Shown one piece after another: positions 4,926 to 19,563 of a DNA stretch of 36,968 bases (positions within the stretch are counted from its first letter, which is position 1; the number at the start of each line of letters is the position of its first letter). Made by a program: the position numbers and the translations under genes. The notes beneath the pieces were generated by a model that ran no database searches, was not told the origin of the DNA, and was given only the letters and a program-made list of their open reading frames with translations. This stretch comes from Syntrophobacteraceae bacterium. Its GTDB lineage: Bacteria > Desulfobacterota > Syntrophobacteria > Syntrophobacterales > Syntrophobacteraceae. The DNA is taken from positions 1 to 36,968 of the forward strand of contig JABUEY010000026.1 in the NCBI GenBank assembly GCA_013314815.1, written 5' to 3'.

Positions 4926-5696
4926 TCATTTCTTCGTAGTTTTGAATTGGACAATCCGCTTGAAGGAATTCACTTCGAGGCTGGCTCCACCCACAAGCAG
5001 CCCGTCGATATCGGGCTGATCCATCAGGGAATCCACATTGTCCGGTTTAACGGAGCCTCCATACAATATTCTCGTAGCGTTTGCAACACTTTTGTCGCAC
5101 AGGGCTCCGTAGCGTTCTCTAATGAATGCGTGCACTTCCTGAGCCTGGCCGGGGGTTGCGGTCTTGCCTGTTCCGATGGCCCAGACGGGTTCGTAGGCGA
5201 TCACCAGCAGCCTGGCTTCCTGCGGGTTCAATCCCAGCACGGCCTGCTGCACCTGTGCGTCCACGACCTTGAATGTGCTGCCGTCTTCCCGCTGTTCAAG
5301 GGTCTCCCCCACGCAGAGTATGGGCACCATCCCGTGCCTGAATACGGCGACCAGTTTTCTGTGCACCATGTCGTCCGTTTCTCCGAAAAGATGCCGCCGT
5401 TCCGAGTGGCCGATGATGGCGTAATCACAGCCCGCATCTTTAAGCATAACCGCAGAGATCTCCCCGGTGAAGGCTCCTTGTTCCTCGCAGTGGCAATTCT
5501 GAGCCGCAAGCTTGAAGTCCGGGCGGCTGATGGTCCTGCGCACTGCGTCGAGGGCGGTAAAGGGGGGAGCAATCACCACCTCGCGGTCCACGGATGGCGC
5601 CGTTTCTTTCTGCAGGTCTTCAGTGAAAGAGACCGCCTCACCGATCGTCTTGTGCATCTTCCAGTTGGCCGCAATGAGCGGCAGTCTGTTTTCCAT
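4926..5696 (-). CDS. tpiA: Triosephosphate isomerase
   Basis: This enzyme interconverts dihydroxyacetone phosphate and glyceraldehyde 3-phosphate in glycolysis and gluconeogenesis. The 256-aa length is standard for the TIM-barrel family. Visible motifs are AANWKMHK with the substrate-binding Asn and Lys, IIGHSERR with the electrophilic His, AYEPVWAIGTGKTAT with the catalytic Glu followed by the flexible loop 6, and the phosphate-binding GGSVKPDN. GAGAGGGG precedes the ATG. It sits between pgk and secG in the same direction, completing a gap-pgk-tpiA lower-glycolysis group. Confidence 0.97.
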   Translation of the reverse strand: MENRLPLIAANWKMHKTIGEAVSFTEDLQKETAPSVDREVVIAPPFTALDAVRRTISRPDFKLAAQNCHCEEQGAFTGEISAVMLKDAGCDYAIIGHSERRHLFGETDDMVHRKLVAVFRHGMVPILCVGETLEQREDGSTFKVVDAQVQQAVLGLNPQEARLLVIAYEPVWAIGTGKTATPGQAQEVHAFIRERYGALCDKSVANATRILYGGSVKPDNVDSLMDQPDIDGLLVGGASLEVNSFKRIVQFKTTKK

Positions 5697-5813: not shown

Positions 5814-7007
5814 TTACACCCTGCGGCAACATTCTTCAAGGGCTTTGATACCGGGCAGTTCTCTTCCTTCGAGCATTTCCAGGAATGCTCCACCGCCCGT
5901 GGAGACGTAGCTTACCCTGTGCTCCATGCCGGCTCTTCTCACCGCGGCCGCCGAATCCCCGCCGCCGACCACCGTGACGGCGTCGAGGTCTCCGAGGAAT
6001 TCCGCCAGGGCATAGGTCCCCTTGTGAAACGGCGGGGTTTCGAACAGGCCGAGCGGACCGTTCCAGACGATGGTTTTGCAGTTCCTGAGAACGGATTTGA
6101 AGACTTCCAGGGTTCCTGATCCGACATCGAGAATCTGAGTGTCCGCGGGCACTCTCTCCACCGGCACCTGCTGAATGTCTCCGCAGCTTTCCGGGTGAGC
6201 CGAAACGACGGCGTCAACAGGCAGGTAGACCTTGACCCCTTTCTTTGTCGCCGCGTCGATCAGGCGCGCTGCGGTTTCAATCTGGTCGTCTTCCACCAGG
6301 GATTTGCCGACCTGTTTGCCCTGTGCCTTGAAGAAGGTGTTGGCCATGGCGCCGCCGATGAGAAGATAATCGGCCTTCGAGATCAGGTTGTCGAGTATGC
6401 CGATCTTCGTGGAAACCTTGGCTCCTCCGATCACCATGGCCAGAGGCCTTGCGGGTTGCTCCATCACCCGCCTGAAGTACTCGATTTCCTTTTCAAGCTG
6501 GTATCCGGCCGCGCAGACTTCCACATACCGGGTGATTCCATGCACGGATGCGTGAGCGCGGTGAGAAACGGCGAAGGCGTCGTTGACGTACACATCGGCC
6601 AGGGATGCCAGCTGTCTTGAGAACTCGTCGTCGTTCTTTTCCTCCCCGGCATGGAATCGCAGGTTTTCGAGAAGCAGGATATCACCATCTTTCATGGCTG
6701 AAACCAGCGCAGACACCTCCTGGCCCACACAATCGGGAGCCAGGCCGACAGGGCGTTCAACGAGTGTTGCCAGGTATTCACCGACGGGTGTCAGGGAAAA
6801 CTCCACGGATGCCTTCCCCTTGGGCCTTCCCAGGTGGGATGCCAGGATGAGCCTGCCGCCGCTGTCGATTACCTTACGGATACTCGGCAAAACCGCCTGG
6901 ATTCTCAGATCGTCCGCCACCCGGCGCTCCCTGTCCAGCGGCACGTTAAAATCCACTCGCATGAATACCCGCTTGCCTGCAAGGTCCACATTGTCCAGGG
7001 TTTTCAT
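5814..7007 (-). CDS. pgk: Phosphoglycerate kinase
   Basis: The enzyme transfers phosphate between 1,3-bisphosphoglycerate and ADP in the cytoplasm. The 397-aa length is typical. Motifs seen are RVDFNVPLD near the N-terminus, LASHLGRPKG, VNDAFAVSHRAHAS, the Gly-rich nucleotide-binding GGAKVSTK, and near the C-terminus GGGDSAAAVRRAG and STGGGAFLEMLEG. GGAG precedes the ATG. It is downstream of gap and separated from it by a 150-nt spacer with a strong stem-loop, so transcript levels of gap and pgk may be set separately by processing. Confidence 0.97.
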   Translation of the reverse strand: MKTLDNVDLAGKRVFMRVDFNVPLDRERRVADDLRIQAVLPSIRKVIDSGGRLILASHLGRPKGKASVEFSLTPVGEYLATLVERPVGLAPDCVGQEVSALVSAMKDGDILLLENLRFHAGEEKNDDEFSRQLASLADVYVNDAFAVSHRAHASVHGITRYVEVCAAGYQLEKEIEYFRRVMEQPARPLAMVIGGAKVSTKIGILDNLISKADYLLIGGAMANTFFKAQGKQVGKSLVEDDQIETAARLIDAATKKGVKVYLPVDAVVSAHPESCGDIQQVPVERVPADTQILDVGSGTLEVFKSVLRNCKTIVWNGPLGLFETPPFHKGTYALAEFLGDLDAVTVVGGGDSAAAVRRAGMEHRVSYVSTGGGAFLEMLEGRELPGIKALEECCRRV

Positions 7008-7157: not shown

Positions 7158-8168
7158 CTAATCGAGAGACCTGGCGACCAGGGCGGCCAGATCCACGAGT
7201 CTGCAAGAGTAGCCGTATTCATTGTCGTACCAGCTCAGCACTTTTACCATGCGGCCCTGCATCACACTGGTGAGGTTGGCATCGACGTTGGATGAATAGG
7301 ACGTATGGTTGAAGTCTATGGAAACGAGTTCTTCGTCGACGTACCGGAGTATTCCCTTGAGCGGACCTTCGGCGGCCTGTTTGAAGACTTCGTTGACTTC
7401 ATCGCGAGTTACATCGCGGCCTACCCGGCAGACCAGGTCCACGAGCGAGACGTTCGGAGTGGGCACCCGGATGGCCATGCCGTCGAGTTTTCCCTTGAGT
7501 TCGGGAATGACTTCGGCAACGGCGCGTGCGGCTCCGGTCGTGGTGGGGATCATGGACACCGCTGCGGCTCGGGATCTGCGCCGGTCCTTGTGCAGAGAAT
7601 CCTGCAGGCGCTGATCCATGGTATACGCATGGATGGTGGTCATGAGGCCGTGTTCCACGACGAAGCGGTCGTGCAGAAGCGAGGCGATGGGAGCCAGGCA
7701 GTTGGTGGTGCAGGATGCGTTGGAGATGATGTGGTGTTTTGACGGATCGTAGGAATCCTCGTTCACCCCGATCACGAACGTGGCGTCCATGCCTTTGCCC
7801 GGGGCGGTAAGAATGACCTTGCGTGCTCCGGCGTTGATGTGCTTGCGGCATCCGTCCCGGTCGGCATACCGGCCTGTGCCTTCCAGAACGACGTCCACGT
7901 TCATCTCGTGCCAGGGCGACTGTTCCGGGTCGGTGACCTTCAGGCATTTGTAGCTCTTGCCGTCGACGATCAACTGATCTTCCGTGGCGGAGACCTCGCG
8001 AGGCCACACGCCATGGACGGAGTCGTACTTCAGGAGATAGGCGAGTTCGGCTGGAGCTGCAAGGTCATTGATTGCGACAAGTTCGAGAGGAGCCTTCTGA
8101 TCCAGGAGAGCCTTGAAGATGGTGCGCCCGATGCGCCCAAAGCCGTTGATAGCCACGCGATTTGCCAT
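7158..8168 (-). CDS. gap: Glyceraldehyde-3-phosphate dehydrogenase, type I
   Basis: This 336-aa enzyme carries out NAD-dependent oxidative phosphorylation of glyceraldehyde 3-phosphate, or the reverse in gluconeogenesis. The Rossmann motif INGFGRIGR is intact. Asp35 in VAIND, which usually binds the adenine ribose of NAD, is present. The catalytic Cys153 lies in NASCTTNC and the catalytic His180 in TTIHAYT. The C-terminal WYDNEYGYSCRLVDL is standard. AAGGAGG lies before the ATG. It is followed by pgk and tpiA and preceded by a second, divergent GAPDH; this copy is the one that looks like the housekeeping enzyme. Confidence 0.96.
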   Translation of the reverse strand: MANRVAINGFGRIGRTIFKALLDQKAPLELVAINDLAAPAELAYLLKYDSVHGVWPREVSATEDQLIVDGKSYKCLKVTDPEQSPWHEMNVDVVLEGTGRYADRDGCRKHINAGARKVILTAPGKGMDATFVIGVNEDSYDPSKHHIISNASCTTNCLAPIASLLHDRFVVEHGLMTTIHAYTMDQRLQDSLHKDRRRSRAAAVSMIPTTTGAARAVAEVIPELKGKLDGMAIRVPTPNVSLVDLVCRVGRDVTRDEVNEVFKQAAEGPLKGILRYVDEELVSIDFNHTSYSSNVDANLTSVMQGRMVKVLSWYDNEYGYSCRLVDLAALVARSLD

Positions 8169-8258: not shown

Positions 8259-9593
8259 TCAGAGAAGCCCGGCAATGCTTACCGTGCGGTCTCCGAGCAT
8301 GTTTGTATAGCTGCCCAGTTCGTTGTCGTACCATCCGTATATCACTGCCTGAGTAACCGGCACTTCGAGTATTTTTTCCTGCTGGGAAGCGCTGAGTTGC
8401 CCTCCCGCGGTTTTTTCGATCTGGGAGATGTCCAGGTTCACCGACGGATTGCCGCTCCCGAGAGAACTCAAGTACTCGCAGGCGCTCAGAACGCGCTGCA
8501 TGTCAATGCGCACCGCTGATGTGCGGGTATGGTTTTCGTGGCCCTCGATCACCGCCGCCGCTCGAGGCAATCCCACAATGTCCGACGAAACATTCTGTTC
8601 CTCGGAATAGACCAGGTATCCTTCCGGGTAATGCATTACGGCTTCTTTGTATATATTATTGATTTTCTGTCGATTGATCGGATTTCTCATGCTCTCGTCC
8701 TGGATCATCATGACGAGGATGATGAGAGAGCCGGTGGTCACGGGAACACGCACCGATTCGGCGATGAACCCGATGCGTTTCATTTCGGGTATAACGAGCC
8801 CAAGAGCCTTGGCAGCCCCGGTGCTGGTAAGGATGATGTTGTTGAACACGGAACGGTTCTTACGCAGATCGGTGGCATTGGACTTGGGAGCCCGGTCGAG
8901 CACCTGCTGCGAGCTCGTGGCGGCATGCACGGTTGTCATGGACGCCGACAGGATCCTCCTGGCCCCAAAGTAATCCAGGAGCGGTTTGACCATGTACGAA
9001 AGACATGTGGTGGTGCACGAGGCATTGGATACGATCAGGTGCTTCTTGGGGTCGTAATCCGTATCGTTTATGCCCATGACCGTGGTAACCGCATCCGCCG
9101 GCATCTCCCTGCTCTTGTCCTTGATCTTGAAGGGCGCCGAAACAATGACTTTCTTGGCTCCCGCAACCAGGTGCCCCCGACACGAACCCCTGGAATCGTC
9201 AGGGGGAACAGTGGGATCCACAAAAGCGCCCGTCGCATCCACAACGATTTCCACTCCATGATCCCGCCAGCCGATGGCCGAAGGATTTCTGGCCTTGCGA
9301 AGGAAGGTGGTTTTCACTCCGTTGATCACCATGCTCCCTTCTTTTTCGTTCAGCTGTTCGATCACCCTGCCGGCCCGGCAGCCGTGCAGAAAGGTGTGAA
9401 GTGTCCCGTAAGTCGAATCCTTTTCGACAAAGTGAGCGATGTCCTCGAGACGGGTTCCTACTTCGCGTCCTATGTTTACGACCAGTTCGGAGAAATAGCG
9501 ACGTTCGACGTGGTGCCAGATGGAAAGCTTCGAGATCCGTCCAAGACCGTTTATTCCGAGTTTCATCGGCACCATGGTTTCTTGATTGCTCAT
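8259..9593 (-). CDS. Divergent GAPDH-family dehydrogenase (444 aa)
   Basis: This is a second GAPDH homologue, about 110 residues longer than the neighbouring gap product. Catalytic residues are kept: Cys193 in NASCTTTC and His223 in TTVHA, plus STGAAKALG and WYDNELGSY. It departs from the canonical enzyme in the cofactor site: the nucleotide loop reads INGLGRISK, with Ser in place of the third Gly, and the Asp of VAIND is replaced by VNIGR. Extra length comes from insertions around residues 45-145 and 310-400. It resembles the long GAPDH-like paralogs known in some gammaproteobacteria. I infer altered cofactor preference (possibly NADP) or a different aldehyde substrate. GGAGGAG precedes the ATG. 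It lies between the dikinase-like gene and gap. Confidence 0.85.
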   Translation of the reverse strand: MSNQETMVPMKLGINGLGRISKLSIWHHVERRYFSELVVNIGREVGTRLEDIAHFVEKDSTYGTLHTFLHGCRAGRVIEQLNEKEGSMVINGVKTTFLRKARNPSAIGWRDHGVEIVVDATGAFVDPTVPPDDSRGSCRGHLVAGAKKVIVSAPFKIKDKSREMPADAVTTVMGINDTDYDPKKHLIVSNASCTTTCLSYMVKPLLDYFGARRILSASMTTVHAATSSQQVLDRAPKSNATDLRKNRSVFNNIILTSTGAAKALGLVIPEMKRIGFIAESVRVPVTTGSLIILVMMIQDESMRNPINRQKINNIYKEAVMHYPEGYLVYSEEQNVSSDIVGLPRAAAVIEGHENHTRTSAVRIDMQRVLSACEYLSSLGSGNPSVNLDISQIEKTAGGQLSASQQEKILEVPVTQAVIYGWYDNELGSYTNMLGDRTVSIAGLL

Positions 9594-9736: not shown

Positions 9737-12700
9737 TCAGGCGGACATGTCCACCTGTTCGGTTTCATGATCACCTACATAGATGGCTCCACTTCGGCCG
9801 TCTATGCCGATGATGTCCCCCGTACGCAGCACATGCCCGTCGATAACACACTTCTTTTCGCTTTCCCAGACTTTCATCTTGCTGAATCCGACGACACAGA
9901 TCTTTCCCAGCCGGTGTGCGACGATAGCGGCGTGGGACGTCGCGCCCCCTTTCCCCGTAAGAATGCCATCGGCAATGGAGATCTCGCGTATATCATCAGG
10001 CACCGTGTCTGAGCGGATGAGAATGATCGGCCTGTCCACGCGATCCTCGCGAAGCCGCTGAATGGAATCGAGGTCAAAGGCCACCGCACCCGACAGGGCG
10101 CCTCCACTGACCCCGATGCCGTTGCCAACATACCCGGCATGCAGTTTGTCCGAAGGCTTGAAAACAGGATAAACCCGCTTGATTCGGGGAGCCATGTTCC
10201 GTGACTGCAGGATGTTGACCCCTTCGGGCCTCGATCCCTGGAATGTGAATTCAACCTCCTGGGGAGCCCAGTTCTGGTCCTCGACAAGGATCTTCGCTAT
10301 TTCGACCAGGCGCTGGTAGACCCTCGGGAACAGGGTTTCCAGGGAAAAGGCCTTGCGTTCTCCCTCCCTCATGCGCTGTTTTTCGGAAAGCGGCAGGGTT
10401 TCCACAAGACCCCCGACCACGTCCTCCCCCTGGTTGCCCAGAGTGAAGTCGCCCACGGGGTCCACCTGGTCTTCGGAAGTCCAGGGTGTATGGGTGAACA
10501 TGACTCCCGCCCCCGACTGGGTGTCCAGGTTGCCGAACACCATCGCTTGAATGGTCACGGCGGTTCCCCAGTTTTCGGACAGCCCCATGATCTCCCTGTA
10601 AGTGACGGCCTTGGGTGAATACCAGGATGCCATGACCTGCCGAATCGCAGTGAACAACTGCTCCTCCGGAGAATCCGAGAAGTCCACTTTGTGCTTTTCG
10701 AGTACGGACTTGTAGGCGAGAGCCAGTTCCCGGATCTCTTTCGGGAGGAACTCCCTCTTCACATGCCTCCCATAGCGTTTCTTGTGGATATTCATTATGG
10801 CGTCGAATTCGTCTCTCTGTATATCGAAAGACATGGCCCAGGACTGGATGAACCTCCTGTAATTGTCCCATGCGAACCAGGCCTCCCCCGTCTGCTGGAT
10901 CAGCCCCTCGACGATTTCCTCGTTGATTCCCACGTTGAGGAAGGTGTTCATCATGCCCGGCATGGACACGGCCGAACCGCTTCGAACGGACAGCAGGAGC
11001 GAGTTGCCGGGCACACCGAATTTGCGGCCGGTTTTTCGTTCCAGGTGATGCACGTGGGTCATGACCCGCTCCCGGAAGTCCTCGCGGGAATGAGAGAAGC
11101 TCTCGATCACACTGCGGCACCTGAAGTACTCCGTCGTGATGACAAAGGCCGGGGGCACGTTGATACCCAGGTCGTGCAGCTTCGCCAGGGTGAATCCCTT
11201 GTTGCCCAGATGGATGAGGTCGTACGTCCTGGGGTTGGGATTACAGACTGACGTTATGGTCTTTTCCGGGTCGTAGCTCAACAGCAGATCGAGCTTGTTC
11301 GTGCTGAGTTCCTCGCGCTGGGTGGCCAGGGTGGTAAGGATGCTGCTGATGAAATGATCGAAGTACTGGAGTCCGAAGGTACGCGCGATGAGATCCCTGA
11401 GGAAGCTTTCGGACACCCGCTGATTTCGCTCCGCAAGAGTCTCCTCCTCCCTGTCGCGCCGGTACCGCGAGAGAAGTCGATGGCCCGTCAGCTGCCTGAT
11501 GATCAGTTCAAGATTCTCTTCGTGAAGGGAATGGTAATGGGTCTGGATGATCTGCTTGATGGCTTCGGAAAATCCACGAAAAAGATCCATGTACTGGGAA
11601 TGAGTGAAGCGGGGGATCTCCAGGGCCTTCATGAAGAGTTCCTTCTGGAGTTCCAGCCGGTTCGAGGTGATCCCGTCGATGGCGAGAGCTTTCATGAAAA
11701 GGGGGAGGAACTTTGCAATCCGGAAAAAGGTGGCCCGCGTAATGAAACTCAAGTTGAACGATAGGATAAGCTCCTCGAAAAGCACATTGGCCAGGTTTTC
11801 AAGGCGGAAAGTGAGACCGAGGGAATCGAATTTCGGTTCATTATAGGAACCGTACATGGACGGAATGTCAACGGCGATGTGTCTTTTGTAATAGATATTC
11901 TCGAGGACCTGAAGCTCGCTTGGGGTGAGGATGACTTCCTTGAGGTTCAGCAGGTAGTTCAGGATGGCATCGAGTTTCACGTAGTTGTCGGGGCTGTCGA
12001 GGGCCTGAAGCAGGGCGGTTGGATCGGGAAGCCCCAGGTTGGCCGCCCGCTGGAGGTGAACATGGATGTCTTTGAAACTCAAAGCGTATTTTTCGTGCAG
12101 CAGCTGGTAGAGCTGGATGATGAGAAAGGCCCGCTGCTTTTCGCGTTCCGATACTCCATCGACTCCATCGATGAGGGAGCGAGTCTCCTCCTCCGAAAGG
12201 TCCAGAAGGTCCTGCACATGGTGGATGGTCCTATTGTCGAACACAGCGCTGAAGATCGCGTGGACCTCGTCCACCAGGGGGCCCGAGGAGACGATTTCGG
12301 GATAGATCTCGGCGGGCACGAGTGCTTTGAGTTTACTCCTGTCCAGGGTGCGCCAGAATTCGATAATAGCCTGGATAAAGGACACGATGACGTTGTTGCT
12401 TTCCACGTGGCTTTGTTTGCGCAGGAAATGGATCAACCTGTCGCTTCTGCCCGTCAGTTCGTCCACATCCGTGGACACGGTTCTCAGCTGCCCTTCGGCA
12501 CCGATCTGGTTGAAATAGACGGGGAAGATCTTTGCCAGCTGCTTCACCATGTTGTACACGGGCCGGATGGGTGCGTGGAGTAGGCTGCTGACGTCCTTTT
12601 GAAAGAGGTCGGTATCCTTGATGTAGATCCCGCCAAGGGAGAGATTCACGATGAGAGCCGAGAGCAGCATCCTTGTGCGTTCGGGATTCTTCTTGATGAT

Positions 12701-13993
12701 ATCCAGCCAGATGCGGACATTGGGCAGATGTGCGGGGTTTACCTCGACCTGCCAGTGCCGGCTGACCCCCCCCAGCTGAGGCGTTTGAAAGCCCATTCGC
12801 ACGATGTGTTTGAGGAAGAAGTCGATGAGGTGCGGGTCTCCCGTGTCGGTTACTTCCATGCCGATGGTCCGAATGATCTGGAGTGCGGCTTCGGGATAGT
12901 TCCGGAAGCAGACACCGAGCACCTCGAAGATCTTTTCCAGGAAACTTTCGAGGGTGTCGCGCGGTTCCTGTTTGAGCCATTTGGCGATGTCGAAGTTGAT
13001 TTCCCGCAGCGTTTCTTCATGAATCCCCTCGAGGCCGCGCACTTCCATGATTTTGAGGCGCATGAGTATACTGTAGTGGGTGTTGCGCGCCGAGTCTTCG
13101 AAGCATTTCAGCTTTTCGGGCAGCTTGAAGTAGGTGCGCACGACCTCATGGAAGTCGGGCAGGGAGCACAGCCTTTCCACGGCAATCTTGTGATCGCTTT
13201 CGGGCACGATTTCCCCGTCGAGGATTCGCAGGTATTCCTTGTAGCGGGCATGCCCCAGAGGAGCACACAGCTCCATCCATGGCGCCGAATCCGACGGCTT
13301 CTGCCCCTGCTGCAGAAGCCACTCACAGGGATCTTCCCTCGACAGCCAGAACCGGCAGGTTTCCATGAGCAGGCGGCTCAGCAGGCTTCGAAGCTCCAGG
13401 AACGACTCGGACCGCGTCCACACTCGCAGAAGCTTAGCCGCAAGCCGCCTGGGTTGATAAAAACTGCGCATGACATGCTCGAAACAGGCGCCGTCCAGTT
13501 CGGCGACCTGTTGGAGCAGGGATCGCAATATGCCTTCGTGGCACCCGGTGATGGCTTCGAAGGAGGCGTCGACATCGGCCGTGGTCATCCCTTGGGGCAT
13601 GGGCCGCGCGATTTCGTCGGGCATTTCGTCGACGATCCGGAGCCAGAAATCCAGCAGATGGTCCGCCGCGGGACTCTGGACCTCGATCCGTTCGGACTGC
13701 CTGAGGGCTTCGAGGAGAATGTGGGAAAGCAGGTAGATCACGCCTCCATTGAGAGGATGGTTCTTGTAGAGGCGCATGTTGGAGATGGCGTATCGCTTGG
13801 TCTCCTGTATGACGTAGGTCCAGTTCCTGTAGCGATGATGATATTCGAGCAGGAGCTCCCGTGCCTGCTGTTCCTTCCCGGCGTAACCTTTCACCGCTTC
13901 AGAAAGGATCTCGAACAGGCGTGGAACCTCCACCTCGACCTTGGTGATGTCCATGTTCTTGGTTAGAGCATCGGATTCAATTCCGTAAAGCAT
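9737..13993 (-). CDS. PPDK-like ATP-grasp/phosphohistidine protein without a PEP-binding barrel (1418 aa)
   Basis: Three regions are visible. Residues 1-915 are long, mostly helical by composition, and match no family I recognise. Residues about 917-1270 are the ATP-grasp domain of pyruvate phosphate dikinase: GNKGFTLAKL, SVRSGSAVSMPGMMNTFLN, WGTAVTIQAMVFGN, NQGEDVVGG and an EVEFT segment before LQSRN. Residues about 1285-1405 are the swivelling phosphohistidine domain, with GGATSHAA and His1354. The protein ends 64 residues after that His, so the C-terminal PEP/pyruvate TIM barrel (about 400 aa in PPDK) is absent. It could form phospho-His from ATP but has no obvious site to make PEP; the acceptor is unknown. 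AAGGA precedes the ATG. Genomic neighbours are the long GAPDH gene downstream and rimI and EIIA-Man upstream. Confidence 0.85.
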   Translation of the reverse strand: MLYGIESDALTKNMDITKVEVEVPRLFEILSEAVKGYAGKEQQARELLLEYHHRYRNWTYVIQETKRYAISNMRLYKNHPLNGGVIYLLSHILLEALRQSERIEVQSPAADHLLDFWLRIVDEMPDEIARPMPQGMTTADVDASFEAITGCHEGILRSLLQQVAELDGACFEHVMRSFYQPRRLAAKLLRVWTRSESFLELRSLLSRLLMETCRFWLSREDPCEWLLQQGQKPSDSAPWMELCAPLGHARYKEYLRILDGEIVPESDHKIAVERLCSLPDFHEVVRTYFKLPEKLKCFEDSARNTHYSILMRLKIMEVRGLEGIHEETLREINFDIAKWLKQEPRDTLESFLEKIFEVLGVCFRNYPEAALQIIRTIGMEVTDTGDPHLIDFFLKHIVRMGFQTPQLGGVSRHWQVEVNPAHLPNVRIWLDIIKKNPERTRMLLSALIVNLSLGGIYIKDTDLFQKDVSSLLHAPIRPVYNMVKQLAKIFPVYFNQIGAEGQLRTVSTDVDELTGRSDRLIHFLRKQSHVESNNVIVSFIQAIIEFWRTLDRSKLKALVPAEIYPEIVSSGPLVDEVHAIFSAVFDNRTIHHVQDLLDLSEEETRSLIDGVDGVSEREKQRAFLIIQLYQLLHEKYALSFKDIHVHLQRAANLGLPDPTALLQALDSPDNYVKLDAILNYLLNLKEVILTPSELQVLENIYYKRHIAVDIPSMYGSYNEPKFDSLGLTFRLENLANVLFEELILSFNLSFITRATFFRIAKFLPLFMKALAIDGITSNRLELQKELFMKALEIPRFTHSQYMDLFRGFSEAIKQIIQTHYHSLHEENLELIIRQLTGHRLLSRYRRDREEETLAERNQRVSESFLRDLIARTFGLQYFDHFISSILTTLATQREELSTNKLDLLLSYDPEKTITSVCNPNPRTYDLIHLGNKGFTLAKLHDLGINVPPAFVITTEYFRCRSVIESFSHSREDFRERVMTHVHHLERKTGRKFGVPGNSLLLSVRSGSAVSMPGMMNTFLNVGINEEIVEGLIQQTGEAWFAWDNYRRFIQSWAMSFDIQRDEFDAIMNIHKKRYGRHVKREFLPKEIRELALAYKSVLEKHKVDFSDSPEEQLFTAIRQVMASWYSPKAVTYREIMGLSENWGTAVTIQAMVFGNLDTQSGAGVMFTHTPWTSEDQVDPVGDFTLGNQGEDVVGGLVETLPLSEKQRMREGERKAFSLETLFPRVYQRLVEIAKILVEDQNWAPQEVEFTFQGSRPEGVNILQSRNMAPRIKRVYPVFKPSDKLHAGYVGNGIGVSGGALSGAVAFDLDSIQRLREDRVDRPIILIRSDTVPDDIREISIADGILTGKGGATSHAAIVAHRLGKICVVGFSKMKVWESEKKCVIDGHVLRTGDIIGIDGRSGAIYVGDHETEQVDMSA

Positions 13994-14162: not shown

Positions 14163-14714
14163 TCATGCCAAGGCAGGAAAGAGATCCCTGATGTTCAGTT
14201 CCATGAGAATCGCTGGTTCCTTCAGTATCCCGTAATAGCCGGGGCGCTCGCCGACCTGTCGAAAACCCAGGCTTTCATAAAGTGCCCTTGCGGCGTTGTT
14301 GCTCCTCCTCACCTCGAGAACGGCCGATTCGGCACCGCTTTCCAGGGCGCTCCTGAGTGCCTGGCACAGGAGCGCCCTGCCGATGCCCTGCCGGCGATAG
14401 GCCTTGTGGACGGCGATATTGAGAATCTGTATTTCGTCCGCCACGCGCCAGTAGACCAGGTAACCGACCACCCATCCGCCGTGTTCCGAGTCCACCCTGG
14501 TGGATCCCCCCGGAATGGTCGGGCATCTTCCGCGAACGCGGGCGGCCAGAATGTGCGAATGCAGCTTTTTCAATTCCCGGGCGAAAGACTCCTCGGTCCA
14601 GGGTTCCAGGTGGCTGTCCCTCTCGATTTCCATAACGGAAGGGATATCGGCAGGCAACAGGGGAACCATCTCGATGCACAAAGGCACGATGCCCGCCCCA
14701 CAGACCGGATTCAT
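14163..14714 (-). CDS. rimI: Ribosomal-protein-alanine N-acetyltransferase (GNAT), RimI-like
   Basis: RimI acetylates the N-terminal Ala of ribosomal protein bS18 in E. coli. The 183-aa product has the GNAT fold features: an N-terminal PADIPSVMEIERDSHLEPWTEESF segment typical of RimI, the beta-4 region DEIQILNIAV, the acetyl-CoA pyrophosphate loop YRRQGIGRAL, and NNAARALYESLGFRQVGERPGYY. The chosen ATG overlaps the EIIA-Man stop (ATGA), showing translational coupling; an internal Met16 is an alternative start nearer the usual family length. The substrate is inferred from homology; other GNAT roles cannot be excluded. Confidence 0.85.
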   Translation of the reverse strand: MNPVCGAGIVPLCIEMVPLLPADIPSVMEIERDSHLEPWTEESFARELKKLHSHILAARVRGRCPTIPGGSTRVDSEHGGWVVGYLVYWRVADEIQILNIAVHKAYRRQGIGRALLCQALRSALESGAESAVLEVRRSNNAARALYESLGFRQVGERPGYYGILKEPAILMELNIRDLFPALA

Positions 14715-15145
14715 GGCGTCCTCGCGGACCGGGCAAGCACTTCACTGGCAAGGGAAATGTGCCTCTGTCCGTACTCCTTCACCAGCGCGGCAGCCTCAAC
14801 GAGAGTGTGATCTGCCCGGCAGCCTGCGAGTTTGATCAGCATGGGCAGATTCATCCCGCACACGACTTCCACCTTCGGACCCAGGAACGACAGGCTGATA
14901 TTGGCGGGAGTTCCCCCGAAGAGGTCGGTGAGAATGAGTACCCCTTTACCTTTGTCCACCTCCCGGATGGCATCTCTCAATGCCTTGACCATCTCCTCCA
15001 CCGGTTGATCCGGTTTGAAGCTCAACGCGCGGCACGCCTCCAGTTTGCCCACTATGAGTTCGGCGGCCTGCAGCATCTCATCGGCCACCCTGCAGTGTGA
15101 AACCGCGACGACTCCTATGAGCTCATTCCGGTCTTCCCTGGACAT
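14711..15145 (-). CDS. PTS EIIA component, mannose family
   Basis: This 144-aa single-domain protein matches mannose-type EIIA, a phospho-carrier that takes phosphate from HPr. The acceptor His17 lies in GVVAVSHC, and the LTDLFGGTPANIS motif and CGMNLPML segment are characteristic. The frame opens with TTG at 15163, but GAGAGG is well placed before ATG 15145, only 10 nt after the rapZ stop, so that start is chosen. No EIIB, EIIC or EIID for a mannose permease is near. With RapZ and PtsN in the neighbourhood, a regulatory rather than transport role is more likely. HPr and Enzyme I genes, often next in this cluster in related bacteria, are not in this window. Confidence 0.88.
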   Translation of the reverse strand: MSREDRNELIGVVAVSHCRVADEMLQAAELIVGKLEACRALSFKPDQPVEEMVKALRDAIREVDKGKGVLILTDLFGGTPANISLSFLGPKVEVVCGMNLPMLIKLAGCRADHTLVEAAALVKEYGQRHISLASEVLARSARTP

Positions 15146-15155
15146 GCGGTACCTC

Positions 15156-16028
15156 TCATTCAAGATGGATATCCCGGTGGAATTCGGTCACGAAGTACTG
15201 GTTTTCTCTCAATACGAAAGCGATCCTGTCGGCTATGACCACCGAACGATGTTTGCCTCCCGTACATCCGATGGCAATCGTGAGATAGCGTTTCCCTTCC
15301 TTAATATAGCAGGGAATCAGCTTGAGGACGAGTCCGCTGTACTCGGTTATGAATTTCGTGGCTGCCGGCCACTGGAGGACCCATTCCCTCACCTGTTCGG
15401 TGCTGCCGTCATAGTCCTTGAGGTCCTCGACGAAATAGGGATTGGGAAGAAAGCGCACATCCATCACCATGTCCGCCTCGAAAGGCAACCCGTATTTGAA
15501 TCCGAAGGAAAGCAGTTGAATGCTCAGCAGTTCCTTTTCATTTACCAGGGAATAGGTTCGAGTGATATAAGCCTTCAGTTGATGGACACTGAAATCGCCG
15601 GTGTCCAGTATGCGGGTTGCCCGGGTGCGCAGAGCCCGCAGTTGTTCGCGTTCGTGCTGGATGGCATTTACCAGGATGGACTCGGAAGCGGCTACGGGGT
15701 GCACTCGGCGAGTCTGACTGTATCGGCGCTGAAGAATATCGATGGGCGCCTCGAGGAAAATAATATCCAGTTTGTAGCCGGCGGATTCGATATCCTTGAA
15801 GATCCTGTCATAATCCTTGAGAAACTTGCGTTCTCTGATATCGATGCCCAGTGCCACCCTCTGTATGTCCGGCATATCCCGCTCACAGAGTGCCAGAAAA
15901 TCAGGGAGAAGAGGTACGGGAAGGTTGTCGATGCAGAAGTAGCCGAGATCCTCGAATGCCTTGATCGCCGTACTTTTGCCTGAGCCTGAAAGACCGGAGA
16001 CGATAACCACGTAAGGTTTTCCCGTCAT
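15156..16028 (-). CDS. rapZ: RNase adapter / nucleotide-binding protein RapZ (YvcJ family)
   Basis: This 290-aa protein has the Walker A motif SGLSGSGKST (residues 11-20), the FCIDNLPVPLL segment, and the C-terminal IGCTGGKHRSVVIADRIA signature, all typical of RapZ. In E. coli, RapZ binds the small RNA GlmZ, guides RNase E cleavage and so controls glucosamine-6-phosphate synthase; in other phyla its target is unknown. It is first in a tight run with EIIA-Man and rimI. In many Proteobacteria rapZ lies by ptsN and rpoN, and here ptsN-hpf-rpoN lies directly upstream in the same direction. Confidence 0.93.
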   Translation of the reverse strand: MTGKPYVVIVSGLSGSGKSTAIKAFEDLGYFCIDNLPVPLLPDFLALCERDMPDIQRVALGIDIRERKFLKDYDRIFKDIESAGYKLDIIFLEAPIDILQRRYSQTRRVHPVAASESILVNAIQHEREQLRALRTRATRILDTGDFSVHQLKAYITRTYSLVNEKELLSIQLLSFGFKYGLPFEADMVMDVRFLPNPYFVEDLKDYDGSTEQVREWVLQWPAATKFITEYSGLVLKLIPCYIKEGKRYLTIAIGCTGGKHRSVVIADRIAFVLRENQYFVTEFHRDIHLE

Positions 16029-16206
16029 GCCGCAGATCCCTGTGAGAGAGAAGGATAGTTTATAGAGGAAGCTTATAGAGACGGTTATTATTACGTCGGG
16101 AGAAACAAGGCAAACATTAACCGCAGTGCGCCGGGATGGGATGGAATACAGGAAAGCGGTCCCGGCCGAACTTCACTTCCCGTCTATTGGCTGCCTGCAT
16201 CCGGTT

Positions 16207-16668
16207 TCAGAAGTCTTCATCCTCCTGCTCAATGATGGCATAGATTTCTTCTGTGTTCGTAACCTTGCCAAGTCTTTTGCGGACGGAACCGTTTTTCAGA
16301 AGCCTTGCGATCTTTGCAAGGACACGCAGGTGGACTCCCGCACAGGTCTCGGGAGCCACCAGGAGAAAGAACAGGTGCACAGGCTTGCCGTCCATGGAGT
16401 CGAAGTCGACTCCAGGAGTCGACCGTCCGAAAGACAGGACAAGCTGGTCCAGGTCTCTCAGTTTTCCGTGCGGTATTGCGATCCCATCTCCTATGCCGGT
16501 ACTTCCCAGGCGCTCTCGATCCAGCAATACCCCCATGAGTCGCTCGCGGTTCATGTGGGGTTTGTGTTTGAGCAACGCATCGATGAGTTCTTCCAGCACC
16601 TGCTTCTTGGTCGTTCCCTTGAGTTCAGGAATGATCGATTCGTGAGCAAGGATATCCGCGATTCTCAT
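16207..16668 (-). CDS. ptsN: Nitrogen-regulatory phosphocarrier EIIA-Ntr
   Basis: This 153-aa protein is a stand-alone EIIA-Ntr. The phospho-acceptor His67 lies in GIGDGIAIPHGKL, and the HLFFLLVAPETCAGVHLRVLA region is typical. In Proteobacteria PtsN is phosphorylated by the PTS-Ntr chain and regulates K+ transport, stress and nitrogen responses. It lies directly downstream of hpf and rpoN, the classical order. GAGG sits very close to the chosen ATG, so the exact start is not certain, but the fit to family length is good. Confidence 0.94.
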   Translation of the reverse strand: MRIADILAHESIIPELKGTTKKQVLEELIDALLKHKPHMNRERLMGVLLDRERLGSTGIGDGIAIPHGKLRDLDQLVLSFGRSTPGVDFDSMDGKPVHLFFLLVAPETCAGVHLRVLAKIARLLKNGSVRKRLGKVTNTEEIYAIIEQEDEDF

Positions 16669-16755
16669 TCATACCTCATGTTCGTCTGTTGATCTCGCTG
16701 GAATCATCGAGTCCACCTGGAAATTCGCATTTCAGGGTCCGACACCGAACGCCGC

Positions 16756-17289
16756 TCATCCAATGGTTTCGATAAGCCCGATTCGGCCGTCCTTCCTGCG
16801 ATACAAGACATTTATACGATTTGTGTGCCGGTTGGTAAAGACCATGAATTCACCGCTGTTGAGATTCAACTGCATCAGGGCCTCTTCGATGTCCATGGGC
16901 TTTGCGTAGACCTGCTCGGTTCTTATGACGCTCATTTCCTCGTCGTCGTGCAAATCCCTGGAACCAGCGGCAGGGCTGAAGTCCTTGATCCCGACGGCGG
17001 GTTTGCGCCTGCGGAACTTCTCCTTGCTTTTCTTGACCTGGGCCTCGATCGTATCGGCAACCAGATCGATGGCCGAATACATGTCGTCCGTTTCTTCGGT
17101 TCCGTTGATTCGAAAACCGTTGGCGTCTATGGACACTTCCGCGATGTGCCGGAATTTTTCGACTTTCAAGACCACATGAGCTTCCACGGGCTCTTCGAGG
17201 TACTTCTTCACCCGGGATATCTTTTCCTCAGCATAGGCTTTCAGCGGCATCGAAGGTTCAATATGCCGGAACGTCACGTTGATCAGCAT
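16756..17289 (-). CDS. hpf: Ribosome hibernation promoting factor, long form
   Basis: This 177-aa protein has the N-terminal sigma-54 modulation/S30AE domain (about 1-105), which binds the ribosomal small subunit in stationary phase. A linker follows, then the C-terminal domain (about 120-177) with PMDIEEALMQLNLNSGEFMVFTN-type sequence that dimerises ribosomes in long-form HPF. The length marks the long type, not the ~95-aa enterobacterial Hpf. It follows rpoN with a 71-nt gap; GGAG precedes the ATG. Confidence 0.94.
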   Translation of the reverse strand: MLINVTFRHIEPSMPLKAYAEEKISRVKKYLEEPVEAHVVLKVEKFRHIAEVSIDANGFRINGTEETDDMYSAIDLVADTIEAQVKKSKEKFRRRKPAVGIKDFSPAAGSRDLHDDEEMSVIRTEQVYAKPMDIEEALMQLNLNSGEFMVFTNRHTNRINVLYRRKDGRIGLIETIG

Positions 17290-17360
17290 AGCTGCAATAC
17301 TCCGTTGTCGACACGGTTTGAGGTTTACGGCGGGAGGGGTTCATGGATAGACCGCCCCCC

Positions 17361-18812
17361 TCAGCTTTCCCAGGAAGACTTCCTGCGTTTGTTGGACGGC
17401 AGTATGCCCAGCATTTCACGGTATTTTGCCACCGTGCGCCGGGCAATGCTGATGTTTTCCTTTTCGAGTACGTCGACGATTTCCTGGTCACTGTAAGGCC
17501 TGGAAGGATCCTCATCTCGAACGATCTGCCGGATGCGCTCCTTCACACTTTCCGAAGCTACGGCTTCCCCCAAAACGCTATTTATGGAACTGTTAAAGAA
17601 ATATTTCAACTCAAAAATCCCGTGGGGCGTATGCATGTATTTGTTCGCCGTCACCCGGCTTATCGTCGATTCATGCATTCCAACGTCTTCGGCCACATCT
17701 CTCAGGACCATGGGCTTCAGAAAGGCGACGCCCTTCTCGAAAAAGTCCAACTGCAGCTTGACGATGCTCTGAGACACCCTGTACAGCGTCCGCTGCCGCT
17801 GGTGGATACTCTTGATGAGCCAGGCGGCGGACTTGAGTTTGCCGTGGATGTAGTCCCTGGCTTCAGTGGGCAGAACGGCGTCTTCGCACAATGCATGCTT
17901 GTAGTAGGAACTGACCCGGAGTTTGGGCATACCGTCTTCGTTGAGTAGGATGACGTATTCACCGTCCACTTTCATGACATAGATGTCCGGGCTGATATAT
18001 TCCACGGACTCCTCGCTGAATGCGCTGCCCGGTCGTGGATCAAAATGCAGAATGATATCCACCGCCGCCTTCACTTCATCAGGCGACCTCTTCAAGGCTC
18101 GAACCAGGGCCTGGTAGTTCTTTGTTTCGAGATAGTGCAGGTAATGTTCCACGATCCGCACCACCAGGTCATCCTGAATGTCCAGGTTCCTGGCCTGGAT
18201 CAGCAGGCATTCCTGAAGATTCCGCGCACCCACTCCCACGGGATCGAACGACTGGATTCTCGACAGCACCTTCTCCACCGTCTCCGAATCGACCTTGCCC
18301 ATCTCCGCGATTTCCTCGATGGTGGCGTCGAGGTAGCCGTCCCTGTTCAGGTTGCCCACAATCAGGACTCCGACCTTTTTTTCCTCGTCCGTCAGGTCAG
18401 AAAAGCGCAACTGCCAGACCAGGTGGTCTTCGAGGCTTGCAGCTACGGAAAGCCGGTTGTCATACGAAGGCCACTCCTTGTTGGGATCCGTTTCCACGAG
18501 AACCGGGGTGCCCGTGTTGTATTCCTCCAGGTAGGACTCCCAGTCGAAATCCTCGCGGACATTTTCAGTGATGCGGACTTCTTCGAAGGGCGTTTCGGCC
18601 TCGGATTCAACCGGCACCGATTCGTCGCCTTCCACCGTTTCTTCCTGAGTCTCCGTTTCCTCCAGCAGCGGATTCGTTTCGAGTTCCTGGTGGATCGTGT
18701 CAAGAAGTTCGAGTCGAGACAGTTGGAGCAGTTTGATGGCCTGCTGCAACTGAGGAGTCATGATCAGCTGCTGGGTGAGTTTGAGTTGTTGTTTTAATTC
18801 GAGTGCCGCCAT
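17361..18812 (-). CDS. rpoN: RNA polymerase sigma-54 factor
   Basis: The 483-aa protein directs RNA polymerase to -24/-12 promoters that need enhancer-binding activators. The N-terminal region I is clear (ALELKQQLKLTQQLIMTPQLQQAIKLLQLSRLEL), followed by an acidic region II, the core-binding domain, and the C-terminal RpoN box ARRTVAKYRE, which contacts the -24 element. The frame is open 29 codons further upstream, but ATG 18812 is chosen because region I starts there and GGGAAGAA precedes it. The gene starts 13 nt after lptB, the conserved lptB-rpoN arrangement. Confidence 0.97.
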   Translation of the reverse strand: MAALELKQQLKLTQQLIMTPQLQQAIKLLQLSRLELLDTIHQELETNPLLEETETQEETVEGDESVPVESEAETPFEEVRITENVREDFDWESYLEEYNTGTPVLVETDPNKEWPSYDNRLSVAASLEDHLVWQLRFSDLTDEEKKVGVLIVGNLNRDGYLDATIEEIAEMGKVDSETVEKVLSRIQSFDPVGVGARNLQECLLIQARNLDIQDDLVVRIVEHYLHYLETKNYQALVRALKRSPDEVKAAVDIILHFDPRPGSAFSEESVEYISPDIYVMKVDGEYVILLNEDGMPKLRVSSYYKHALCEDAVLPTEARDYIHGKLKSAAWLIKSIHQRQRTLYRVSQSIVKLQLDFFEKGVAFLKPMVLRDVAEDVGMHESTISRVTANKYMHTPHGIFELKYFFNSSINSVLGEAVASESVKERIRQIVRDEDPSRPYSDQEIVDVLEKENISIARRTVAKYREMLGILPSNKRRKSSWES

Positions 18813-18825
18813 GGTTTCTTCCCGT

Positions 18826-19563
18826 CTAAGACAAGCTGAAATGATCCCCGAGGTAGGTCCGGCGGGCGAGGTCGCTGCCCGCGATAGTGATCGGGTCACC
18901 CGATTCCAGGATCTTTCCTTCGTGAAGTATATAGGCCCAGTCGCAGACTTTGAGTGTCTCCCTCACATTGTGGTCGGAAATCAGCACTCCGATTCCCCTG
19001 GCTTTAAGCGACCGGATGAGCCCCTGTATTTCAAGGACTGCGATGGGATCGATCCCTGCAAAGGGTTCGTCGAGAAGAATGAAATCCGGTTGTGTGACCA
19101 GTGCCCGGGTGATTTCCACGCGCCTGCGTTCTCCTCCTGAAAGGCGGTCAGCTTTGTTTGATGCCAGGTGAGCGATATTCAGGTCGCCGAGCAGGTCTTT
19201 GAGTCTCGACCTCCTTTCAGCCCGGCTGAGGTTCATGGTTTCGAGGATGGCCATGATGTTCTCTTCCACGGTCAGTTTACGAAACACCGACGGTTCCTGC
19301 GGCAGATAGGTAATCCCCTTTCTTGCACGCAGATACATGGGCAGGCCGATAATGTCCTCCCCGTTCAGATATACGGCTCCTGAATCGGGACGGATGATCC
19401 CCACCACACTGTAGAAGGTGGTCGACTTTCCCGCGCCGTTCGGGCCCAACAGTCCCACGATCCAGCCTGCGCGAACCTCGAGGTTCACGTGGTCGACTAC
19501 GCAACGGCCCTTGTACGATTTCACCAGGTCCTCGACAACGAGGGTCTTGGCCTCGCCCAGCAT
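18826..19563 (-). CDS. lptB: LPS export ABC transporter ATP-binding protein LptB
   Basis: LptB is the cytoplasmic ATPase of LptB2FGC, which extracts lipopolysaccharide from the inner membrane. The 245-aa protein shows Walker A GPNGAGKST, Q-loop region TYLPQEPSVF, ABC signature LSGGERRR, Walker B FILLDEPFAGIDP and the switch His in ISDHNVRETL, a phrase specific to LptB. AAGGA precedes the ATG and the lptA stop is 3 nt upstream. LptF and LptG are not in the window. Confidence 0.97.
   Translation of the reverse strand: MLGEAKTLVVEDLVKSYKGRCVVDHVNLEVRAGWIVGLLGPNGAGKSTTFYSVVGIIRPDSGAVYLNGEDIIGLPMYLRARKGITYLPQEPSVFRKLTVEENIMAILETMNLSRAERRSRLKDLLGDLNIAHLASNKADRLSGGERRRVEITRALVTQPDFILLDEPFAGIDPIAVLEIQGLIRSLKARGIGVLISDHNVRETLKVCDWAYILHEGKILESGDPITIAGSDLARRTYLGDHFSLS

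Follow-up and report, generated by a model that had tools for sequence, protein, structure and literature searches.

Described systems and the locus analyzed

VadK (Rv1127c) of M. tuberculosis, a PPDK without the pyruvate/phosphoenolpyruvate (PEP) barrel that controls enzymes of the methylcitrate cycle (PMC13400623), is the closest published parallel found to the protein described here. This protein, designated PPDKL, is encoded on the minus strand of a 36,968-nucleotide stretch of DNA from a Syntrophobacteraceae bacterium (GenBank assembly GCA_013314815.1, contig JABUEY010000026.1, positions 1 to 36,968; referred to below as the window). Both are PPDK-derived combinations of an ATP-grasp and a histidine domain, encoded beside the pathway that is, or in the case of PPDKL would be, affected. 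VadK differs in being an actinomycete protein of about 50 kDa without a large N-terminus, whereas PPDKL has 1418 residues and lies beside gap, pgk, and tpi. The rifampin phosphotransferase (RPH) and HpeHI-type dikinases likewise join an ATP-grasp domain, a swivelling histidine domain, and a non-barrel acceptor domain (PMC4844700, PMC12167813), but their catalytic part is PEP-synthase-like, their acceptors are phenolic compounds or antibiotics, and the acceptor domain of HpeH is fused to the swivel domain. With PPDK itself (pyruvate, phosphate dikinase; TIGR01828; structure 1kbl), PPDKL shares the ATP-grasp and phosphohistidine domains at approximately 33% identity, the GGxTSHAA motif, and the catalytic residues. 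It differs in its missing PEP/pyruvate barrel, its approximately 925 extra N-terminal residues, and its partner dehydrogenase, GapL. Since that barrel defines PPDK, the protein should not be classified as one.

The catalytic modules of PPDKL are known, and its architecture, its acceptor region, and its partnership with GapL are undescribed in the literature searched, in which no paper on PPDKL or on its pairing with a GAPDH was found. It belongs to a family of approximately 1400-residue proteins that occurs in several phyla of mostly anaerobic bacteria, has a strict partner at the core of glycolysis/gluconeogenesis, and probably performs an undescribed step in central sugar metabolism. The reading preferred here, held tentatively, is that phosphate would pass from phosphorylated His1354 to a metabolite of the 3-phosphoglycerate node bound at an N-terminal site, yielding 1,3-bisphosphoglycerate for GapL.

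Domain organization and integrity of PPDKL

9737..13993, minus strand: PPDKL, PPDK-like phosphohistidine kinase, 1418 aa, with relatives of about the same length
11219..13993, minus strand: N-terminal region, residues 1-925, predicted by AlphaFold2 to be a HEAT-like alpha-solenoid with one beta-hairpin
10193..11218, minus strand: PPDK-type ATP-grasp domain, residues 926-1267, recognized by Pfam, alignment, and the match of a structural model to PPDK
9740..10165, minus strand: phosphohistidine (swivelling) domain, residues 1277-1418, ending where PPDK would run on into the barrel

The reading frame is intact and begins with ATG. The Pfam scan identified PPDK_N at residues 971-1267 (E 7e-34) and PEP-utilizers at residues 1321-1402 (E 2e-16), did not find PEP-utilizers_C (PF02896, the PEP/pyruvate barrel) anywhere in the protein, and gave nothing significant for residues 1-915. 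The phosphohistidine motif GGATSHAA contains T1352-S1353-H1354 (codon of His1354 at 9932-9934) and is followed by 64 residues to the C-terminal end. The frame and the Pfam scan thus agree with the initial annotation, which had described intact ATP-grasp and phosphohistidine modules, His1354 within TSHAA, an end 64 residues later, and no TIM barrel. That annotation had also named a frameshift or misassembly near position 9737 and a separately encoded barrel as findings that would overturn its reading. Neither was found: 143 bases separate the PPDKL stop from the next gene, and homologues stop at the equivalent point. Approximately 100 relatives were read at full length, most of them 1360-1460 aa and ending just past the histidine domain; because they share this layout, length, and end point, frameshift, truncation, and misassembly are ruled out, and the architecture is neither chance nor damage. 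A search of the source genome (4.06 Mb, 97.7% complete) with PEP-utilizers_C returned three matches, namely one phosphotransferase system (PTS) enzyme I and two complete PPDKs. With all three barrels accounted for, no free-standing barrel protein was found that could complete PPDKL. Damage to a PPDK, its division into two proteins, or a barrel borrowed from another protein would suit a PPDK-type catalytic half with a missing barrel, but these explanations are refuted by the relatives of equal length and by the two complete PPDKs and the lack of a free barrel in the same genome.

A search with residues 1-916 detected relatives in 38 of the 148 sampled Desulfobacterota genomes and on 172 stretches in genome_contigs. 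The layout occurs in Desulfobacterota, Firmicutes, Riflebacteria, Calditrichota, and Bacteroidota (including Bacteroidales). One single-contig genome (G065:C1:682947-685584) has the N-terminal region split over two frames near residue 616, and the genes of its congeners are intact.

The catalytic half

Profile comparison with solved PPDKs placed the start of the PPDK-like part near residue 913, and by sequence this half is clearly PPDK-type. The PPDK residues K22, R92, R135, E323, Q335, R337, and H455 correspond to K932, R1004, R1047, E1248, Q1263, R1265, and H1354 of PPDKL and are conserved at 95% or more among PPDKL relatives, some of which read TSHAS at the phosphohistidine motif. PPDKL scored 394.7 bits with the PPDK model TIGR01828, which is below the NCBIfam cut-off of 843 bits set for the full-length model, 89 bits with PEP synthase, and 37 bits with RPH (cut-off 999). 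When the PPDKL profile was compared with solved structures, PPDK ranked far above PEP synthase and rifampin phosphotransferase. A model of residues 560-1418 (mean pLDDT 84) matched PPDK 1kbl with E 8e-36 and 33% identity, and the closest paralogue in the same genome is a PPDK (271 bits), with PEP-synthase-like proteins at 47 bits or less. From the retained PPDK residues, the PPDK-like model, and the PPDK paralogue we infer that ATP- and Pi-dependent autophosphorylation is likely. The initial annotation's analogy to rifampin phosphotransferase and to glucan water dikinase holds in principle only, the catalytic half being of the PPDK type rather than of the RPH type.

The N-terminal region

12389..12793, minus strand: conserved core A, residues 401-535, defined by alignment; candidate acceptor site
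11798..11908, minus strand: conserved core B, residues 696-732, with ENIYYKRHIAVDIPSMYGSYNEPKFDSLGLTFRLE, defined by alignment and model; candidate acceptor or lid loop

Conservation in the N-terminal region is uneven and is concentrated in these two cores, which match the ATP-grasp domain in invariance and are rich in Trp, Arg, Lys, His, Asp, and Glu. The invariant residues of core A are W414, N419, H422, R427, W429, D460, T461, D462, K484, Q485, E500, R504, D511, E512, R516, R525, K526, H529, and E531. The AlphaFold2 model of residues 1-930 (mean pLDDT 84.8) is nearly all helical; its sole beta-hairpin, at residues 697-718, is formed by core B and has at its tip a low-confidence loop of invariant residues. 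The cores resemble a substrate-binding site more than they do a simple scaffold, and their wealth of Arg, Lys, and His is as expected for an acceptor that is a phosphorylated acid. Both cores are kept in a Riflebacteria member (L105, alignment A1) whose genome is without GapL; their retention there speaks more for substrate binding than for docking of GapL.

Searches of the PDB with the N-terminal region gave no match for the single sequence, and the profile hit nothing but a designed helical protein, at E 1.1. The fold search (Foldseek, VIA-align) yielded nothing above background: the hits were weak and unspecific, to importin-like and further helical-repeat proteins, and even the best (Z 8.8, rmsd 13.3) fell within the background seen with helical models. 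The very large N-terminus of its own, put at approximately 900 residues by the initial annotation, is upheld at approximately 925 residues, without sequence relatives in Pfam or the PDB. An alpha-solenoid is predicted where that annotation had spoken of an unknown fold, and the fold may be a known one.

GapL, the partner dehydrogenase

8259..9593, minus strand: GapL, divergent GAPDH-family protein, 444 aa, encoded next to PPDKL and co-occurring with it

GapL forms a separate family with members approximately 48-82% identical, and scored 336.6 bits against the type I GAPDH cut-off of 367.2. It retains the GAPDH catalytic Cys (ASCTTT), His (HAxT), and Arg (SxRxP), and also has insertions. The ND motif of NAD-dependent GAPDHs is replaced by N-x-GR, which suggests NADP as the cofactor.

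Among the 148 Desulfobacterota genomes, 37 have both PPDKL and GapL and 108 have neither; PPDKL occurs alone in one (76% complete) and GapL alone in two (62% and 79% complete). In 299 genomes of one Firmicutes phylum, the same five genomes have both and the other 294 have neither. Families f4, f12, f13, and f51 are mixed, each genome having both genes or neither. The probability of the co-occurrence (P = 2.6e-31) ignores kinship, so that the agreement within families and the comparison of trees are the safer evidence. Tree distances of PPDKL and GapL were correlated with r = 0.96 (83 pairs). In a comparison over 16 genomes, in which PGK served as an additional control since the GapA set may contain paralogues, the PPDKL-GapL pair gave r = 0.94, and all other pairs of PPDKL, GapL, GapA, and PGK gave 0.54-0.72. 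The sequences of Firmicutes, Calditrichota, Bacteroidales, and one Desulfobacteraceae member cluster together in both trees, so the two genes seem to travel as a pair, and by co-occurrence and co-evolution GapL qualifies as a near-obligatory partner of PPDKL.

Strict pairing and matching trees also suit two proteins that interact. The main rival to the preferred reading makes PPDKL a regulatory phosphohistidine protein, which would be charged by ATP on its histidine and would use its helical N-terminus to bind GapL or GapA and control it. VadK offers a precedent, being a barrel-less PPDK that autophosphorylates and binds enzymes of the pathway encoded beside it (PMC13400623). The alpha-solenoid predicted for the N-terminus of PPDKL resembles many protein-binding scaffolds. 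VadK is, however, without the 900-residue addition, a regulator would not need the full set of dikinase residues, and the N-terminal cores are as invariant as the catalytic site across phyla. Because this catalytic-looking conservation persists in the Riflebacteria member without GapL, regulation is weakened as an explanation and is regarded as unlikely. If PPDKL does regulate GapL, a PPDK would have become a metabolic regulator a second time, independently of VadK.

Genomic context

7158..8168, minus strand: canonical type I GAPDH
5814..7007, minus strand: phosphoglycerate kinase (pgk)
4926..5696, minus strand: triose-phosphate isomerase (tpi)
14163-18899: rpoN-hpf-ptsN-rapZ-EIIA(man)-rimI cluster, directly upstream of PPDKL and kept in close relatives

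Among the closest groups, most loci with good coverage have a GAPDH-family gene adjoining PPDKL. The PPDKL and GapL genes are often adjacent and in some genomes overlap or are separated by 2-6 bases; other genomes carry both at widely separated positions. In five genomes (G014, G052, G088, G117, and G145) PPDKL is located elsewhere while GapL and pgk share a strand and are within 0.8 kb of each other, and the GapL-pgk spacing is approximately 0.2 kb in G029, G101, and G129. PGK was found in 40 of 40 genomes searched, which rules out PPDKL as a substitute for a missing PGK and indicates that the PPDKL-GapL pair adds to PGK/GAPDH rather than replacing it. A divergent PGK of approximately 440 aa was observed in three genomes (G033:C57, G153:C255, and G072:C43) and is the sole PGK found in G033 and G153. 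A PTS link through the neighbouring EIIA, PtsN, and RapZ was rejected, since that gene order is mostly limited to close relatives whereas the GAPDH link spans phyla.

The GapL pairing and the triose-phosphate surroundings narrow the candidate acceptors to the 3-phosphoglycerate/1,3-bisphosphoglycerate/glyceraldehyde-3-phosphate node or to GapL itself. The initial annotation, which had proposed another acceptor in the form of a small molecule, protein, or polymer, was probably correct as to another acceptor, and had missed GapL and the triose-phosphate genes. The same gene context would also suit transfer of phosphate to a hydroxyl on a triose-level compound (glycerate, dihydroxyacetone, glyceraldehyde, or 2- or 3-phosphoglycerate, the last two to a bisphosphate), with GapL acting one or two steps away. 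Barrel-less dikinases are known to phosphorylate hydroxyls (RPH, PMC4844700; HpeHI, PMC12167813), but the strict co-occurrence with GapL in particular, instead of with a kinase- or mutase-type partner, would be left unexplained, and we consider a hydroxyl acceptor improbable.

Proposed function

The model with 3-phosphoglycerate as acceptor is favoured because the kinase is tied to a GAPDH-fold dehydrogenase and by the gene context. A kinase together with a GAPDH-fold reductase is the usual means of making and reducing an acyl phosphate, as in PGK/GAPDH and aspartokinase/ASADH. PPDKL with its co-occurring GapL resembles these pairs and differs from them in that a phosphohistidine dikinase would serve as the kinase and that acyl-phosphate formation is a proposal here. 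Exchange between a phosphohistidine and an acyl phosphate is known from succinyl-CoA synthetase.

PPDKL would have been derived from PPDK by loss of the C-terminal pyruvate/PEP barrel, with the large helical N-terminus supplying the acceptor site. His1354 would be phosphorylated by ATP, Pi probably taking part as it does in PPDK, and the histidine domain would swing to the N-terminal cores (approximately 401-535 and 696-732), where the phosphate would be passed to a metabolite of the 3-phosphoglycerate/glyceraldehyde-3-phosphate node. The acceptor would most likely be 3-phosphoglycerate, and GapL would reduce the resulting 1,3-bisphosphoglycerate, probably with NADPH, to glyceraldehyde-3-phosphate. 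Conversion of ATP to AMP + PPi makes such a step considerably more favourable than that of PGK by textbook energies, and the pair could thus form a strongly driven route past the near-equilibrium PGK/GAPDH reactions, analogous to PPDK acting on pyruvate. The opposite, ATP-forming direction is also possible. In its most specific form, as a new 3-phosphoglycerate dikinase of central carbon metabolism that is linked to AMP + PPi in either direction, has a dedicated GAPDH and a new acceptor domain built of helices alone, and serves as a driven PGK/GAPDH bypass in energy-limited anaerobes, the proposal is possible but doubtful.

Several points weigh against this model. To our knowledge, characterized ATP-grasp/histidine dikinases transfer phosphate to enol or hydroxyl groups and never to carboxylates. 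In the fold search the N-terminal model resembles helical-repeat scaffolds, which often bind proteins. PGK is present in every genome examined, which would make the step redundant. GapL was not found in the four Riflebacteria genomes searched (G148, G149, G151, and G152; loci L105, L107, L110, and L111), which have PPDKL and canonical GAPDH only; GapL is therefore not always needed, and the partner of PPDKL in this group may be the canonical GAPDH or none.

Should 3-phosphoglycerate or one of its neighbours be the acceptor, the PGK/GAPDH step, held to be fixed, would have an unnoticed AMP/PPi-linked alternative, with a bearing on sugar synthesis by syntrophs and sulfate reducers close to the thermodynamic limit. 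Whether PPDKL is an enzyme or a regulator, there are two genes to study jointly and a short list of acceptors.

Other features of the window and of the source genome

30079-32403: AcsV-like corrinoid activation protein (485 bits against a family cut-off of 800)

Further dikinase-like proteins are encoded in the source genome. A 989-aa PPDK-like protein (L126:2347-5316, contig C229) shows only the ATP-grasp domain by Pfam, and GGxTSHA was absent from it in a simple search. There are four PEP-synthase-like proteins of 870-890 aa (L119:4303-6954, L120:3907-6519, L120:11810-14482, and L121:3330-5957); the three that were scanned with Pfam have ATP-grasp and histidine domains, no barrel, and approximately 300 C-terminal residues without a Pfam match at 1e-5. 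Finally, L122:1480-5238 (minus strand, contig C148) encodes a 1252-aa protein in which a PEP-synthase-like ATP-grasp and histidine domain are joined to a dual-specificity-phosphatase domain, so that, judged by its domains, kinase and phosphatase are combined in a single chain.

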